From positions 434,001 to 498,000 of the forward strand of contig NZ_SMFQ01000005.1 of assembly GCF_004339015.1 (NCBI RefSeq): 64,000 nt of DNA, written 5' to 3'. The notes under the pieces are model-generated. The model saw only the letters and a list, made by a program, of their open reading frames with translations. It was not told where the DNA came from and did not search any database. A program made the translations under genes and the position numbers. This document shows positions 34,972-42,705 of the stretch, one piece after another. The DNA is from Cocleimonas flava. Lineage in GTDB: Bacteria; Pseudomonadota; Gammaproteobacteria; Thiotrichales; Thiotrichaceae. The first letter of the stretch is position 1. Each line of letters begins with the position of its first letter.

Positions 34972-35330
34972 GCACCAATTCTATGTTAATCCTTTCATCA
35001 AAAAATTATGGGTATCACACGAAATAATGGATCAAATTGAAGGTTAATTGAGCGTAGCGAATTCCCTTTATCCCCATTATTTCTGAGAAACGCAATGCCC
35101 CTTTTGTTATTAAAGGGGCGCCTTTAGTTGGCGGCACTTTTTATTCGACTGCGTCTCTCCCTAAAGGGTCGTCGTCTCTACGCTCCAACGTTGTCTCGCG
35201 ATGCTCGGCTGGGATACGTTTTTATTGCTGTAGATAAAAAGGTATCTCGTTGCCCTTCTCGTTAATTAGAGAAAAACAAACAGCCACAAGGCAGCGAAAA
35301 CTTAATCCGTTCTAGTAGCAAATATTATTA

Positions 35331-35500
35331 CAAGTGCAAACACTGTACGTCGACGATTCCTTTCGGAATCTACGACGAACTTTAGCGAACTTACCGTTTA
35401 GTTTTTTTAAACGGATAATTCGATTATTTGACGTGTCATTTCTAGCTCCTAAGGAGCCTAGAAAAGCCACCTCCCCACTTACAGCCCCTTTTTCCATACA
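35331..35500 (+). repeat. Structured ~165-bp repeat element, copy 1
   Basis: Highly similar to 42541-42705. Contains hairpin 1 (outer CGTCG/CGACG, inner GATTCC-TTTC-GGAATC), hairpin 2 (CGTTTA / TAAACG over a T-rich loop), a short ATAAT-TCG-ATTAT stem, a GCTCC-TAA-GGAGC stem, and a short repeat unit (CACCTCCCCACTTACAG) at its 3' end. No open frame. May be an RNA or a miniature mobile element. Confidence 0.8.
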
Positions 35501-35541
35501 AACCAATTATCAGAAAAAACGCCCATAAGTAGGGGGGTGGC
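35466..35541. repeat. Inverted pair of short repeats closing the structured element
   Basis: Left arm 35466-35481 and right arm 35526-35541 match at 14 of 16 complementary positions. The left unit belongs to the structured element; the right one is a reverse-oriented copy with A-run AAAAAACGCCC. The arrangement mirrors the pair at 1355-1408. Confidence 0.8.
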
Positions 35542-35578
35542 ATAAAATAAAAATCAAACAATTTATAAAAATAACATA

Positions 35579-36193
35579 ATGTTTATCTTTGTATTTCTAA
35601 TCATAGTCATACTTTTAATTGTCGTTATACAACTTCAATCACCCACCCTCAAAGGTAAGATTGGTGAATCAATCGTAAACCGTGCGATCAACAAAAAACT
35701 CAACAAAGCTCAATATCATCTCATCAAAGATATAACCATACCGGTGTTAGATCACACCACCCAGATAGATCATGTCATCGTTTCTCGATATGGAATTTTC
35801 GTGATTGAAACCAAGAATATGAAAGGCTGGATATTTGGTGGCGAACGACAGAAAATTTGGACACAATCTTTACTTGGAAAGAAATTTAAGTTTCAGAACT
35901 CATTACATCAAAACTATAAACACATAAAAGCATTAGCGCATATGCTCGAACTAACAGATGATAAATTCCACTCAGTAATTGTCTTTACTGGTGAGAGTAC
36001 ATTCAAAACCCAAATGCCTGAGAATGTCTTAGATAAAGGCTACATCGATTACATTAAGTCTAAAAAAGAAGTAATTTTTTCAATATCTGAAGTATATGAA
36101 TTTATTGAGAAAATAGAGCTACTAGAATTAGAACGCTCAAGAGAAACGAATAAAAATCATATCGCTTATTTAAAAATGCATCATAAGACTTGA
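35579..36193 (+). CDS. Membrane-anchored NERD (nuclease-related) domain protein
   Basis: 204 residues. One N-terminal membrane helix (FIFVFLIIVILLIVVIQL) is followed by a NERD domain: LKGKIGESIVNRAI, LDHTTQIDHVIVSRYGIFVIETKNMKGWIFG, in which the E...D...ExK residues match the PD-(D/E)XK nuclease pattern, then QNYKHIKAL and FHSVIVFTGES. The C terminus is helical and charged. Family function is poorly defined (predicted nucleic acid processing). It stands alone behind a repeat-rich spacer, which may have supplied its promoter. Confidence 0.8.
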   Translation: MFIFVFLIIVILLIVVIQLQSPTLKGKIGESIVNRAINKKLNKAQYHLIKDITIPVLDHTTQIDHVIVSRYGIFVIETKNMKGWIFGGERQKIWTQSLLGKKFKFQNSLHQNYKHIKALAHMLELTDDKFHSVIVFTGESTFKTQMPENVLDKGYIDYIKSKKEVIFSISEVYEFIEKIELLELERSRETNKNHIAYLKMHHKT

Positions 36194-36348
36194 ATTGTGA
36201 GCTTCCCCCACCTTTATATGCATTTCCTCTAGAATTGTTTTAGTTCAGGTATATTAAGCTTTTATTAAAGTGTCATTATCTCAATCACAGTTAATGAAAT
36301 GTTCTATATTTACTATAGATATAGGATTATTTGTGAGGAGCGTAAATA

Positions 36349-37281
36349 ATGTTGTATGCACAAAATAGCTTTATTAAAGTAACTTTATTGATAATTATTT
36401 CAATAATGATAGCCAACAGTTGCTACGCTCAACAACCAAAATACCCTGCAGCAGTCATGCTAGGTGATGGTGATAATAAAAAAATGTTCGTTTTTAATAA
36501 GCTGGTTAACTGCTCTGCACCAAAAGAAAAAACGGGAGAGTTTGATGCTGCGCTTGTTATAGATGCGAGTAACCCATTTCCTAAAATGAGCATATCTGGC
36601 AGATTAAAAAGCGCCAATGTGGTAATTGATATCAGTGATACGGTTAGCTATAAAAGCCAAGGCAAAATTAAATGGTTTGAAAACCAGGGTTTTTATTACC
36701 GAAATTCATTTGAACATTGGGAAAATGGGAGTTTGATTGGTAAAACACCTTCCGTGGTTTCTTTGAATTGTTTTTATGATAAAAAATCCGTATCTGAGAA
36801 AACACTAAAAAATGATGGAGTAGATAGTTCAGGTCAGGTCAGTGCAGAAAAATTAAAAGAGGCTGAGTCCGGTGCTCATACGATGATTCGCAAAAAACTT
36901 AATGAGGCAAAGTCAAAGAAAAACACAGTGAAACCCAAAGCCTATGCCACATTTATGGCACGTAATACTTACCCTCCACTTAAAATGAAGTCATATCATC
37001 TTGATACATTCAATGAATGTAGAAATCCAAGTGCTGATGACAATACAATCTCAATAGATGTCTCTGCTAAGTATGATGAAACCTCTATGAAAATTACTGG
37101 CACACTAGAATCACCCAATTTTGATATCAGTCTCGGCGAGGGTAAGGTTTTTAGTGGAAAAGGTAAGTTTCTGCAAAGTAAGAACGACGAACATACATTC
37201 CATTTAAGTTTAAAACCTTCAACAGGAAGTAAAGCCACTCAGCCAAAAACATTTACCGGTGGCTTTTCTTGTTCACAATGA
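36349..37281 (+). CDS. Secreted protein of unknown function with possible internal duplication
   Basis: 310 residues, not recognised. A Sec signal peptide is clear (hydrophobic core 12-22, cleavage after CYA at 25-27). The mature part seems to hold two related halves joined by a Lys/Glu-rich linker (~150-195): each has a Cys early (LVNCSAP; FNECRNP), an SISGRLKSANVVIDISD / KITGTLESPNFDISLGE segment, and ends with a Cys in a short tail (SLNCFYD; GFSCSQ). Each half could form a disulfide-stabilised beta domain. Start has GAGGAG 8 bp upstream. The stop overlaps the next start (ATGA), so the two are made together. Confidence 0.7.
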   Translation: MLYAQNSFIKVTLLIIISIMIANSCYAQQPKYPAAVMLGDGDNKKMFVFNKLVNCSAPKEKTGEFDAALVIDASNPFPKMSISGRLKSANVVIDISDTVSYKSQGKIKWFENQGFYYRNSFEHWENGSLIGKTPSVVSLNCFYDKKSVSEKTLKNDGVDSSGQVSAEKLKEAESGAHTMIRKKLNEAKSKKNTVKPKAYATFMARNTYPPLKMKSYHLDTFNECRNPSADDNTISIDVSAKYDETSMKITGTLESPNFDISLGEGKVFSGKGKFLQSKNDEHTFHLSLKPSTGSKATQPKTFTGGFSCSQ

Positions 37282-40124
37282 TTCATAAAAGCCTATCAAA
37301 GCGTTTAAAGGCGTTATTTTATTGTTTAGTTATCTGTGTATATGCATCAACTGCAATTGCTGAAGATAAATTACACATTATTGGTACTGACTCTCCTACC
37401 CTCGGTTGGTCATGGCCTTATACTCTGACTTCTTTCGACTTGCCAAATAAAGCCAATAAATCAGGTTACATCCCCAACATTCCAGCTGAATTTCCTAATG
37501 TAATGAATGGAATGTACGAGCGAGATCAGGAGGTTAAAATCTTTTGGGATTTTGGTGATGGTAGCTCCAAGTTCAATTCGAAAGATCGAATCAATGCATC
37601 ACACATTTATAAAAAAGCTGGCACTTATAACATCAAGGTTGTTATTACAGATGAAAACGATCAAGTATTTGCCAGTACTTCTAAAACTGTAACTGTTAAA
37701 CCAACAGAACCACATTCCTTTTTTGGTGTAGTACCTGTTAATGAAGATGAACCCACTCGACTTAAATTCGATTCGGCTACATTTCTCAAAGAACCAACAG
37801 ATGATCAAATGTTGACATATGAATGGGATTTTGGCGATGGGAACAAAAAAAAAGGAGAAAACTTAGACTCTTTAATTTACACATATGCAACAACAGGAAC
37901 TTATAAAACTAAACTAAAAGTAACGAATAAATTTGGATTAACGCATACCAGCAAAAAAACAGTAAGGGTAATTGCAAAAAAACCTGCAAAGGTTGAACAA
38001 ACACAAGATGAGTTAAAAGCCCCAGATATTATTAGCAATAAAGTTAATTTGAAAGTATCTGGAAGTATATCTGCAAAGATTAGCGCGACAGCCGAACGCA
38101 CAGCATCAAGCGTTTTTATGGCACCAGTAAGAAATGGTACTTGCCAAGTGTGGATTAACTATTGGGATGATACCAACTTAGTAGGCGGTTTGTTATTAGT
38201 TAATTTAGGCTATCTCCCAAAAAATGGTGCAAACTATAAATTTAAAGGAAAGCAAAGATTTAGTTTAGCGGCTTACCCTGATATTAAGACTTATTTATAT
38301 GCTAAAACAAACCTCCATCCCTTAAGTAGTTCTGCAGGTTTTAACAAACCACTACACAGTTTTGGTGAAATCGCAGAGCTTTCTATGAACAGTGGCACTA
38401 TAGATTTAACCGTAAAAAATGGTAACTATATATTAGGAAAGATCAATAGCAAACTTACTGGATATATTGGGCCTTTTCCAATTGAAAATAGAAAAAAAAT
38501 ATCTATCAACGTGAAAGGTGATCTCAGTGTAACTCTTGGAGATCGTGGTATTGTAGATACAATTTTTAGCCCAATAACTTGTAAAGAGAAGGGCTTAGAA
38601 ATTATAAAACGTCACCCTAAATCAGGACAAAAACATTTAGTAATGCCTCGGCCTATAATAAGAAACAACTTTAATGATAATCTTCAAATAGATAGCGTTA
38701 ACGATCAAACATTTCAAGTAGGTTACCCCAATGCCAATGGTGACTTTATCAAAGCACCAGGTAAGATAATATTAAATAAGAAGAAAATAGAATTTGTACC
38801 AAACAAAAGACTACGTCCTGGTATCAGGTATACAGTCAGAGTCAAAACTGGAGAAAATGGAGTACGTTCAGCATCAGGAAGCCTTCTTATAGATGAACAA
38901 GGTACAGGTTGGCAAGAGTCGTCATTTTGGACAAAGATAGATTTTTCGAGTGATTCCGGCAACCCCAGTAATTTAAGTTGTGACGTGTATCAAAGCGTGA
39001 AAAACGCACCTCTTATCGAAGGCAAACCTGCATTGATGAAAATCTATGCTGATTGGCCTGTATATGATGATGTACATAAAGATGCTCAATACAAAGACTT
39101 TAAAGCAAAAGTATCTTTATATAAAAAAGGAAAGGCAATCAAAACCATTTTGCATAAATACACAAGAACTGATAGACGTAGTGGCTGGGGAAAACCAAGA
39201 TTACGCAATGAAGAAGCCGCTGAGCTTCCCTATTTACCTAACGATTACAAAGTCGAAAATATCAGCCTAATCGTTGATGATAAAGTCGGCGGCCAATCAA
39301 GTTATAATACTTATTGTAGTACACCAAAATGGGACTTAGTACCAACTTTAAACGTAGCTTTCTTCGTTATTGATGATGGTCGCTACGGCCCTAATACTAA
39401 AAGCGATATACCAACACAGTTGAGCAAACAGCATGTTAAACAACTAATCGATCAATATGCCCATGAAGTTAAAATTTATGCAGAGCAGATACTTCCAGTT
39501 AAGACAATTGATATATATCCACCTGTTTTTATCGACCCACCTGATATAAATTTAAGTTTGATGAATTGGTATACAAAAGGATGCAAACCTCCAACAATCT
39601 CAGATATAACTGTAAAAATAATTGAAGCTGAGATAGGTGAAAGGAAAAAGATTTTAGACGTTATTAACAACCTAGAGAGTAATGCACATATCATTGTATT
39701 ACTAGGTCCTCCTGTTCTCTTAGGTGGTGGTGGGGGAACAGTGGCAGACTTAAGTTCAAAACAAGGACTGATTACAATGTCGGTTGCAGATGATGCAAAA
39801 GCTTTTAAAAGATATGTAAATGGTTTGGTTCATGAATTCGGTCACGTGTTATCTCTTCAACACAAGCCATTTGTTGATGCTTGTTCAAGAAGTAAGCTCT
39901 TGGCAAAAAGGGATTTTGGAACCAGACAATGGTATGAAGGTATCGATGCTATGCGAATCTCTGCGGATGGAAAGACCTGGTGGCATAAATCATCTAGAAT
40001 TGGCAATGATGAATCTATACACATAGCTCCTCTCATGTTTCCCGGAACCTTACAACCTGAGGATGCTTTTATTTCACATCATCATTATAGAAAAGCGCAA
40101 TATTTTTTAGAAAAATATTATTAA
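37278..40124 (+). CDS. Secreted PKD-domain protein with metzincin-like zinc motif
   Basis: 948 residues from ATG 37278, which overlaps the previous stop codon. A signal peptide (cleavage near AIAED) is followed by two PKD domains: ~75-145 with IFWDFGDGSS, ~160-235 with YEWDFGDGNKKK. A long middle region includes an Ig-like segment (IEFVPNKRLRPGIRYTVRVK). Near the end is HEFGHVLSLQH (His852, Glu853, His856, His862), matching the HExxHxxxxxH zinc motif of metzincins with Ser in place of the usual Gly, and a later Met (PLMFPG) that might be the Met-turn. A secreted metallopeptidase is likely; target unknown. The family is not recognised beyond these motifs. Confidence 0.65.
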   Translation: MIHKSLSKRLKALFYCLVICVYASTAIAEDKLHIIGTDSPTLGWSWPYTLTSFDLPNKANKSGYIPNIPAEFPNVMNGMYERDQEVKIFWDFGDGSSKFNSKDRINASHIYKKAGTYNIKVVITDENDQVFASTSKTVTVKPTEPHSFFGVVPVNEDEPTRLKFDSATFLKEPTDDQMLTYEWDFGDGNKKKGENLDSLIYTYATTGTYKTKLKVTNKFGLTHTSKKTVRVIAKKPAKVEQTQDELKAPDIISNKVNLKVSGSISAKISATAERTASSVFMAPVRNGTCQVWINYWDDTNLVGGLLLVNLGYLPKNGANYKFKGKQRFSLAAYPDIKTYLYAKTNLHPLSSSAGFNKPLHSFGEIAELSMNSGTIDLTVKNGNYILGKINSKLTGYIGPFPIENRKKISINVKGDLSVTLGDRGIVDTIFSPITCKEKGLEIIKRHPKSGQKHLVMPRPIIRNNFNDNLQIDSVNDQTFQVGYPNANGDFIKAPGKIILNKKKIEFVPNKRLRPGIRYTVRVKTGENGVRSASGSLLIDEQGTGWQESSFWTKIDFSSDSGNPSNLSCDVYQSVKNAPLIEGKPALMKIYADWPVYDDVHKDAQYKDFKAKVSLYKKGKAIKTILHKYTRTDRRSGWGKPRLRNEEAAELPYLPNDYKVENISLIVDDKVGGQSSYNTYCSTPKWDLVPTLNVAFFVIDDGRYGPNTKSDIPTQLSKQHVKQLIDQYAHEVKIYAEQILPVKTIDIYPPVFIDPPDINLSLMNWYTKGCKPPTISDITVKIIEAEIGERKKILDVINNLESNAHIIVLLGPPVLLGGGGGTVADLSSKQGLITMSVADDAKAFKRYVNGLVHEFGHVLSLQHKPFVDACSRSKLLAKRDFGTRQWYEGIDAMRISADGKTWWHKSSRIGNDESIHIAPLMFPGTLQPEDAFISHHHYRKAQYFLEKYY

Positions 40125-40162
40125 CAACTGCTAGTTAGTGATGAATTTTACTATTATAAAGA

Positions 40163-40189
40163 CACCCCCCTACTTTGAGGCACTTTTTT
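40163..40189 (+). repeat. CACCCCCC short repeat after the PKD gene
   Basis: Consensus 5' part, stem CCT-ACTTTG-AGG, then CACTTTTTT. It lies 39 bp after the stop codon in the sense direction. Confidence 0.8.
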
Positions 40190-40301
40190 AATCCCTTTCC
40201 CTCCCCCAAGAAAGAAAACAAACAACCACAAAACAACTAAATCCGTTTAAAATCTAATTAAAAAGCCTCCCCCTTCTTTCTAACACATTTGAGGAACAAC
40301 A

Positions 40302-40922
40302 ATGATCAGAATACTCTGTTTTGGCGATTCTAATACCTGGGGATATGATCCCGAAACGTCTCAACGGTTTGATAACAAAACGCGCTGGACGCAAGTGATG
40401 TTAAGTGAACTAGGTGCAGATTATGAAATCGTTGAAGAGGGAATGAATGGTCGCACGACCGTTTGGGATGATCCCGTCGATGGATTAATGAGTGGTCTTT
40501 CGTATTTAAAGCCATGCCTACTTTCACAAAAGCCTTTGAATATAGTGCTGCTGATGTTGGGAACAAATGATCTAAAAGATCGATTTTGTGTTTCAGCAGC
40601 GGAAATTGCCAAATCAGCGGGGCGCTTAGTACAGATGATTCAGGCAAGTGATGCTGGAATAGAGGGCAAAGCACCTGAGGTTATCTTGATGGCTCCACCA
40701 CCAACTGAGAAAGGAATAGATGGACTGGGGTTGCGTCAAAATGGTTTTGAAAAATCGCGTGCTTTCGCAGCCTCTTATTCACAAATAGCAGATGAACTAG
40801 GTTGTGAGTTTTTCGATGTTGGCAGTGTTATTGAATCGAGCCCAGTCGATGGTGTTCACTTTAGTGCACAGTCACACCGTATATTAGGTCGGGAGATGGC
40901 AAAGGTATTATTAAAGCGTTAG
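40302..40922 (+). CDS. SGNH/GDSL hydrolase
   Basis: Cytoplasmic esterase-like enzyme of 206 residues without signal peptide. All four SGNH blocks are present: CFGDSNTWGYDP (catalytic Ser), NGRTTVWDDP (Gly/Asn area), LMLGTNDLKDRF (Asn), and the C-terminal DGVHFSAQSH (Asp-x-x-His). The N-terminal block resembles arylesterase-type members. The substrate is not predictable. AGGAACAAC lies upstream of the start. Confidence 0.85.
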   Translation: MIRILCFGDSNTWGYDPETSQRFDNKTRWTQVMLSELGADYEIVEEGMNGRTTVWDDPVDGLMSGLSYLKPCLLSQKPLNIVLLMLGTNDLKDRFCVSAAEIAKSAGRLVQMIQASDAGIEGKAPEVILMAPPPTEKGIDGLGLRQNGFEKSRAFAASYSQIADELGCEFFDVGSVIESSPVDGVHFSAQSHRILGREMAKVLLKR

Positions 40923-41024
40923 TTAACTCATCTCTTTTCTATTTACAAAATAGCTCCCACTTTAGAAGCTCATTAGCGCTTCATACTTAAACAATCACAC
41001 AAACCCTATCCGACTATTTTACTT

Positions 41025-42323
41025 ATGAAAAATAACGTTAAAGGTCTTTTCTGGTTTAGAAATGATCTTAGATTAGAAGATAACCCTGCACTTAACTCGC
41101 TTGTTGATGCATGCGATCAGCTCATGTTTGTTTATATTCTTGACCCTGATTTACTGGAGCAAAATCACTTTGATCAAGCACGACTCGGTTCGCCACGTTG
41201 GCAGTTTATTCATGAAAGTTTGCTCGATTTAGACAAACAGTTAGAAAGGCACCAGCAAACGCTAATTATCAAAGTGGGAAAGCCTACTGAGGTATTAACA
41301 ACTCTCATCAATCAGCATGATATTACAGAATTTGGGGTAACGCCTTTAACGGGTGTTTATGAAAAACGAGACATTCAATCATTAGATGAGGCTTTCAAAT
41401 GTCGGTTGAATTGGCATCGTGATGAATCATTCACCTTGTTTAATCAAGCTGAGTTACCTTTTACTTTGGACGAAATGCCCGATGGTTTTACCCCCTTTCG
41501 CAAGCGTATTGAGAAAGCGATTAAGGTAGAAAAAATCACAGAGAAAACGACGTCTAAACCGAATAAATTTCCGGCTGCGATCCATGCAATTGCATCGGAT
41601 ACTTTACCGATTATTGATGACTTCATTCATCCTATTCCAGCGATGAAACACCAGGGTGGTGAAAAAGCTGCCACACAGCAATTAGCTTACTACTGCCAGC
41701 AAACACAACACTTGAGTCATTACAAAGAAACACGAAACGGGCTAGATGGCTGGGACTTTTCCAGTAAATTGTCAGCGTATCTCGCACAGGGGTGTTTATC
41801 ACCCAGACAAGTAATGCAAACGGTTGTTGAGTATGAAAATCAATTTGGTGCTAATCAATCGACTTACTGGTTATATTTTGAATTGCTTTGGCGTGAGTTT
41901 TATCAATGGCATCAAGAAAAATACGGCGCTGGTCTTTATTTAGAAAGAGGCATTCAAGATATAGACCCCCAACTTAAGTTTGATCAAAAAGCCTTCGACC
42001 AATGGAAAGATGGTTCTACTAACAATGATTTCGTCAATGCTTTTATGCTTCAGCTCAAACATACAGGCTGGATGTCGAATCGCGGGCGTCAAATCGTTGC
42101 CAGTTATTTTATCAATCAACTGGGACTAGATTGGCGTTATGGTGCCGCATGGTTTGAGCAGCAATTAATTGATTATGATCCCGCTAATAACTGGGGCAAT
42201 TGGCAATACTTGGCAGGTGTGGGGGTTGATCCTAGAGGACGACGTGCATTTAATATCGACAAACAAAGAAAGACTTACGACCCTGATAGAGATTTTATAA
42301 ATCACTATATGAATGAATTTTGA
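41025..42323 (+). CDS. Cryptochrome-DASH / photolyase
   Basis: FAD-binding photolyase-family protein of 432 residues. N-terminal alpha/beta antenna domain (GLFWFRNDLRLEDNPAL), then the FAD domain: HYKETRNGLDGWDFSSKLSAYLAQGCLSPRQ, STYWLYFELLWREFY, HTGWMSNRGRQIVASYFINQLGLDWRYGAAWFEQQLIDYDPANNWGNWQYLAGVGVDPRGRRAFN. The RNGLDG...SSKLS and GNWQYLAGVG motifs favour the DASH class, which repairs pyrimidine dimers in single-stranded DNA using blue light. Suggests an organism exposed to light. Followed immediately by 17-bp tandem repeats. Confidence 0.88.
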   Translation: MKNNVKGLFWFRNDLRLEDNPALNSLVDACDQLMFVYILDPDLLEQNHFDQARLGSPRWQFIHESLLDLDKQLERHQQTLIIKVGKPTEVLTTLINQHDITEFGVTPLTGVYEKRDIQSLDEAFKCRLNWHRDESFTLFNQAELPFTLDEMPDGFTPFRKRIEKAIKVEKITEKTTSKPNKFPAAIHAIASDTLPIIDDFIHPIPAMKHQGGEKAATQQLAYYCQQTQHLSHYKETRNGLDGWDFSSKLSAYLAQGCLSPRQVMQTVVEYENQFGANQSTYWLYFELLWREFYQWHQEKYGAGLYLERGIQDIDPQLKFDQKAFDQWKDGSTNNDFVNAFMLQLKHTGWMSNRGRQIVASYFINQLGLDWRYGAAWFEQQLIDYDPANNWGNWQYLAGVGVDPRGRRAFNIDKQRKTYDPDRDFINHYMNEF

Positions 42324-42325
42324 AC

Positions 42326-42376
42326 TGACTCGTGTTTTGGCCTGTCTCGTGTTTTGGTCTATCTCGTGTTTAGACC
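42326..42376 (+). repeat. Three tandem 17-bp direct repeats
   Basis: Units at 42326-42342, 42343-42359 and 42360-42376 share the core CTCGTGTTTTGG (third unit diverged to CTCGTGTTTAGA). They start 3 bp after the photolyase stop codon. Confidence 0.85.
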
Positions 42377-42540
42377 TATATAAAGTGCTTACGATTTCTT
42401 TCACTCATACTTGAATCTGGCACTGTTGTTAAACCCCATTCAGATATGCCGAGCCACGTAGAAAATTATCGATTAAGGTTTTCGTTGTTTGCGCCAAGCG
42501 AGTTCGAAAACCTTCTCAGGTCTAATAGTTAATATCATCC

Positions 42541-42705
42541 CAAGTTCGAACACTGTACGTCGACGTTTCCTTTCGGAAACTACGACGGACTTTAGCGAAC
42601 TTACCGTTTAGTTTTTTAAACGGATAATTCGATTATTTGACGTGTCATTTCTGACTCTTAGTAAGCCTAGAAAAGCCACCTCCCCACTTATAGGCACTTT
42701 TTTAA
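42541..42705 (+). repeat. Structured ~165-bp repeat element, copy 2
   Basis: Nearly the same as 35331-35500. In hairpin 1 the inner stem is GTTTCC-TTTC-GGAAAC against GATTCC-TTTC-GGAATC in copy 1: both strands of one base pair changed together, so pairing is kept. Hairpin 2 loop is one T shorter. The last stem (GCTCC...GGAGC in copy 1) is replaced here by ACTCTTAGTAAG and is weaker. Confidence 0.8.
42677..42703 (+). repeat. Short repeat unit at the end of structured element copy 2
   Basis: CACCTCCCCACTTATAGGCA plus T-run. It shares the CACCTCCCC variant with copy 1 at 35468 and nowhere else, so this variant travels with the element. Confidence 0.8.

Follow-up and report, generated by a model that had tools for sequence, protein, structure and literature searches.

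Hairpin-forming repeats of Cocleimonas: a probable mosaic of mobile modules inserted into one another at fixed positions

The window analysed here, a stretch of 64,000 nucleotides from Cocleimonas flava, carries two nearly identical non-coding segments, at 35331-35500 and 42541-42705, which raise the question of what kind of element they are copies of. The original prediction described two copies of a structured element of ~165 bp whose hairpins are under selection, and offered a small RNA, a riboregulator or a miniature mobile element as explanations. We compared the genome of origin (G000; Cocleimonas, Thiotrichaceae, 4.49 Mb) with that of a sister species (G007) and with further genomes inside and outside the genus, and we conclude that the segments probably belong to a mosaic of hairpin-forming repeats, that is, of non-autonomous mobile modules of a BOX/REP-like kind, nested in one another by insertion at fixed positions. 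Bacteria commonly carry small palindromic repeats, yet their mode of insertion is rarely visible; here, sister genomes of roughly 80-95% identity hold the same sites in filled and empty states, so that the target rule can be read directly and the mobilising enzyme can be hunted.

Modules of the two copies

Both copies lie at the positions predicted for them and share 91% identity over 163 bp (E about 1e-59), which excludes a chance match. Their predicted folds are more stable than those of dinucleotide shuffles (z of -3.65 and -5.86), with none of 200 shuffles being as good. Each copy is a composite that reads, in order, hairpin A, an inserted hairpin module B, hairpin C and a short repeat, S. 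On the plus strand of the first copy, module A (hairpin 1) spans 35341..35383, with stem arms at 35348-35360 and 35365-35377; it is followed by the core of module B (35384..35427), the 3' tail of B, TTGACGTGTCATT (35428-35440), module C, which is the second hairpin of the A-C unit (35441..35466, with the ATTT directly 5' starting the C stem), and S (35467..35493). A second S in inverted orientation (35514..35540, minus strand) lies 20 bp past the first, with the T tracts inside the inverted pair. The second copy, likewise on the plus strand, comprises A (42551..42593), the B core (42594..42636), the B tail (42637-42649), C (42650..42675) and S (42676..42703). Module B thus comprises a hairpin of 44 nt and a tail of 13 nt, C forms a stem of 12 bp interrupted by one bulge, and the A-C unit measures about 70 bp.

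Much of what had been read from these two copies holds. The compensatory change in hairpin 1, GATTCC/GGAATC in the first copy and GTTTCC/GGAAAC in the second, is real, the single-T difference lies in the B loop, which is one T shorter in the second copy, and both copies terminate in a variant of the short repeat, CCACCTCCCCACTT, running on to TTTTT in the first. The broader statement that all differences fall in loops or preserve pairing applies to hairpin 1 and to the B loop but fails for hairpin C of the second copy (CTGACTC..AAGCCTAG), where two pairs are broken relative to the family consensus and the predicted fold lacks this hairpin. The notion of a ~165-bp element in two copies also needs revision. 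A DNA search of the own genome returned 55 matches, seven of them long (the query included) and many spanning a single part of the query, and it was because these partial matches always covered the same parts that we recognised the module structure. The two copies and the composite stretch exist as described, but several long relatives and numerous partial ones are present in the genome, all belonging to a genus-wide family, and the proposed boundaries have to be redrawn, since the modules are each found apart. In the own genome, A-C without B is the usual form and A-B-C the rarer one, whereas other Cocleimonas genomes have B free of A and C, located directly after S in one of them (G003).

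Distribution and genomic context

The covariance-model search that the original prediction had proposed as a check yielded further copies. With the A-C model, 48 matches were obtained in the own genome, among them about a dozen weak ones that echo the palindromes on the antisense strand. The sister genome gave 42 and eight further congeners 1-10 each, compared to none in 18 genomes outside the genus. The B model matched all 12 Cocleimonas genomes and none of 18 genomes of other genera. The core of S is present in about 890-920 copies in G000 and G007 and in 240-655 copies in four congeners, but in only 0-4 copies in six other Cocleimonas genomes; as these six still hold B and, mostly, A-C, the modules are independent families. 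They have spread between genes and into one another across Cocleimonas, in a BOX/REP-like manner. Among phages, plasmids and viral contigs (IMG/VR), no relevant copies were found; the single match to the S core (L200) sits in unrelated sequence and was discarded.

All copies of A are intergenic. When 23 A-C loci were classified by reading the orientation of their neighbours, eight lay between convergent genes, six after a sense gene, three antisense to both neighbours and six between divergent genes. The neighbouring genes are unrelated, the copies occur in every orientation, and no transposase was present among 20 neighbouring proteins. The combination of unrelated neighbours and mixed orientation does not fit a dedicated regulator or terminator.

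The short repeat (consensus AAAAGnCACCCCCCTACTTTTAGGCACTTTTTT) follows a different pattern, being found mostly just past gene ends and in sense orientation. In the window, it occurs at 1355, 4761, 10722, 14885 (minus strand), 17013, 20442, 25366, 40163, 43403, 44451 and 48084; the copy at 40163..40189 (plus strand), 38 bp past the stop codon of the open reading frame 37269-40124, represents the ordinary S without A-C, which is the commonest form. Along the contigs of G000, S shows a strong orientation bias (621 forward, 268 reverse). That it follows a sense gene in 63 of 90 intergenic cases, ends in T6 and keeps its position between species would suit a composite that acts as a transcription terminator or 3'-UTR processing signal, with S and its T tract doing the work and A, B and C stabilising it. 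We nevertheless regard this explanation as improbable for the composite: the sole S-derived terminator-like site in the scanned region is on the minus strand, S copies mostly have poor folds, without covariation, the gene preceding A-C is antisense or divergent at nine of the 23 loci, and A-C and B are present in congeners that lack S. No intrinsic terminator, in the sense of a GC-rich stem and then a T tract, was scored in either window copy, C being followed by CCACCTCCCC rather than by T. S itself may still be a 3'-end signal, though one without a covarying stem. A hairpin within S was considered and rejected, since mutual information across 179 copies gave no pairing columns.

Covariation of the hairpins

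For the A-C unit, we aligned 27 copies from two species and compared 23 stem pairs with 500 shuffles. Both sides have changed in at least one copy for 12 of these pairs, and the 36 compensatory cells, against 9.7 in the shuffles, were not reached by any of the 500; the signal was lost when the pairing partner was slid. Hairpin A alone, in 45 aligned copies, has compensatory changes at six of 11 pairs. Module B, with 27 copies from several species, has them at six of 13 pairs (32 cells compared to 11.1 in shuffles) and provides the clearest single case, TGAG/CTCA as opposed to CGAA/TTCG. In the A-C units of distant congeners, both hairpins are kept with other bases, for instance CACTTCC..GGAAGGTG and AGCGC..GCGCT. 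The proposed maintenance of hairpin structure, originally read from one compensatory change, is therefore borne out by many more covarying pairs across paralogues and species.

The covariation is real, and there is no sign of constraint at the RNA level. Mispairs within the stems comprise 27 A.C and 17 G.T cases, without an excess of G.U. Were a transcript of this strand under constraint, G.U should be the preferred mispair; as it is not preferred, the palindrome seems to matter as DNA, or to be kept by repair between its arms. Decay of the copies after insertion would also level the G.T and A.C classes, and the covariation could stem from template-switch repair of quasi-palindromes instead of from selection. 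Covariation between paralogous hairpins is, on its own, no evidence of a functional RNA. A family of small RNAs or riboregulators, transcribed and selected for RNA structure, would account for the strong covariation, the low folding energy and the exclusively intergenic position, but is very improbable. The copies have no relative in Rfam 15 at gathering or permissive thresholds and no promoter-like site on their plus strand, they hold no constant position relative to genes (being sense, antisense, convergent and divergent), they show the mispair counts just given, 17 G.U against 27 A.C, and they tolerate the internal insertion of B and of a further module, D. Of the options in the original prediction, it is the RNA that finds no support and the miniature mobile element that fits, in view of dispersed intergenic copies, nested insertions and sites that are filled in one species and empty in the other.

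Nested insertion and its possible agents

The nesting follows fixed positions. B follows GACTTT, between A and C, in both G000 and G007; in G010 it follows ATACTTTT, a divergent sequence of A, and in G003 it follows CTACTTTT, which belongs to S. TTT stands immediately 5' of B in 93-96% of 29 copies. The 58-bp module D lies inside B at CTCA|ATTAT, in G002 as well, and inside another module, F, at TAGA|ATTTAT; F (~57 bp) in turn lies inside S at CTACTT|AGGC. The return of B, D and F to the same positions indicates that nesting is recurrent and position-specific.

Comparison of G000 and G007 reveals several of these steps as filled and empty orthologous sites. D is present within one A-B-C copy in G007 and absent from it in G000 (L112 and L065, respectively), and F is present within one S in G000 and absent in G007 (L071 and L110). 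One locus has the stretch flanked by the same inverted S copies in opposite orientation in the two genomes, the inversion being exact and B being confined to G007; two loci carry A-C units in tandem in G000 but a single unit in G007; and at one gene end, a B-C..A-C array precedes S in G007, whereas S stands alone in G000. D, F, B and the A-C array are hence MITE-like, non-autonomous elements in the broad sense of being short, non-coding and dispersed, with filled and empty sites. The check for empty sites and target duplications revealed filled and empty states but no clean duplication, any duplication at the junctions of D, F and B being no longer than about 2 bp, and the sister genome holds no clean empty site for either window copy. 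Presence and absence of B, D and F could partly reflect deletions, and the array differences are consistent with homologous recombination. Several other A-C copies are common to the two species at base level, from which we conclude that movement is slow and present mobility low.

In the probable history of this mosaic, the A-C unit would have dispersed into intergenic regions, often directly 5' of S, B would have inserted between A and C after CTTT, D into B and into F, and F into S. The hairpins may be recognised by an enzyme acting in trans, with insertion presumably taking place on the 3' side of a short, T-rich target and creating no long target duplication. Insertion of this kind would be in keeping with an IS200/IS605 (Y1/HUH) mechanism, in which hairpins transpose as single strands. 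The copies would have no dedicated host function and would now rarely move, as the A-C sites common to two species suggest. More tentatively, we speculate that at least five modules (S, F, A-C, B and D) might serve as mutual landing sites, inserting as single-stranded DNA into the loop side of a hairpin or a T-rich shoulder under the action of an enzyme that, in the own genome, is none of the known Y1 transposases; this extension is possible, if somewhat unlikely.

IS200/IS605-type elements transpose as single strands, and the modules are reminiscent of these families in having two hairpins, a short T-rich 5' target and no long duplication. One may ask, then, whether A-C is a true member of them, either as the REP of a REP-associated tyrosine transposase (RAYT) or as an IS200/IS605 derivative. 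The same features, with the 5' target being fixed as well as short, agree with Y1 transposition of single-stranded DNA, Y1 genes occur in seven of 12 congeners, and an A-C array in G001 has an IS200-type gene within it. True membership is nonetheless doubtful: the own genome is rich in A-C but has no Y1 gene, A-C does not have the GTAG head of REPs, A-C was found in only three of 16 Y1 neighbourhoods of congeners and not as flanking inverted pairs, and the RAYT-like gene near the A-C copies of G007 has GTAG-type palindromes of its own. The idea that a RAYT mobilises A-C, raised by an A-C copy flanking a Y1 gene, was rejected in view of these separate palindromes, the nature of the G001 gene as an IS200-type insertion and the absence of a Y1 gene from the own genome. 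The G007 gene (L206:2660-3196, minus strand, contig C26) encodes 178 amino acids and, with its palindromes CGGATAAGCGCAGCGCTATCCG, constitutes a REP system in its own right, with an A-C copy about 180 bp away. The G001 transposase gene (L201:2579-3019, contig C70) belongs to an inserted element with its own ends, and hairpin A of one copy in the interrupted array is missing.

The preferred reading, a mosaic of non-autonomous modules, has its closest parallels in other small repeats. BOX elements of Streptococcus pneumoniae are modular (boxA-boxB(n)-boxC), intergenic, hairpin-forming and limited to close relatives; BOX, RUP and SPRITE are sometimes inserted into one another and move slowly, SPRITE being terminator-like, and a target duplication is reported for BOX (PMC3049150). 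Our repeats resemble BOX in being intergenic, hairpin-forming and confined to close relatives, in their low present mobility and, by analogy of layout, in their optional central module, with A and C flanking no B or one, and S may be terminator-like as SPRITE is. They differ from BOX in that B is independent in other species and was only ever seen singly between A and C, in that nesting positions are fixed and several levels deep, and in that the modules show no target duplication. The BOX-type combination of terminal inverted repeats with target duplication was not found in the Cocleimonas modules; TTGCTT/AAGCAA ends occur on A-C in divergent congeners only. REP/BIME sequences require both a GTAG head and a cognate RAYT (PMC2817692). 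They share with our repeats the extragenic palindromes, compensatory changes, mosaic composition, high copy number and inverted pairs, whereas the A and C consensus has no GTAG head and there is no repeat-flanked cognate transposase, nor any Y1 gene in the own genome. GC clusters of yeast mitochondria are short, palindromic, intergenic mobile DNA that merges and shuffles, though they are organellar, GC-rich and flanked by AG or ACT duplications (PMC4478555). The likeness to them concerns very short size, palindromic nature, intergenic position and the merging or shuffling of units; we claim no sequence relation. Judged by title, none of the 15 best-ranked papers naming Cocleimonas deals with repeats. 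Compared to known mosaics of small repeats, the notable new point is nesting at fixed positions over several levels.

Two further observations concern the arrays and the surroundings of these repeats. The genus also contains tandem A-(B)-C' arrays (L067:8924-9354, L070:14547-14755 and L075:8185-8365), in which the 3' half of hairpin C is mostly missing from the units that precede the last, and linkers of about 50 nt join the units. In the window, the upstream flanks of the two copies (35008-35314 and 42408-42513) are matched at 84-92% by other repeats dispersed in the sister genome, and a D-like sequence lies near 35145-35210, upstream of the first copy.
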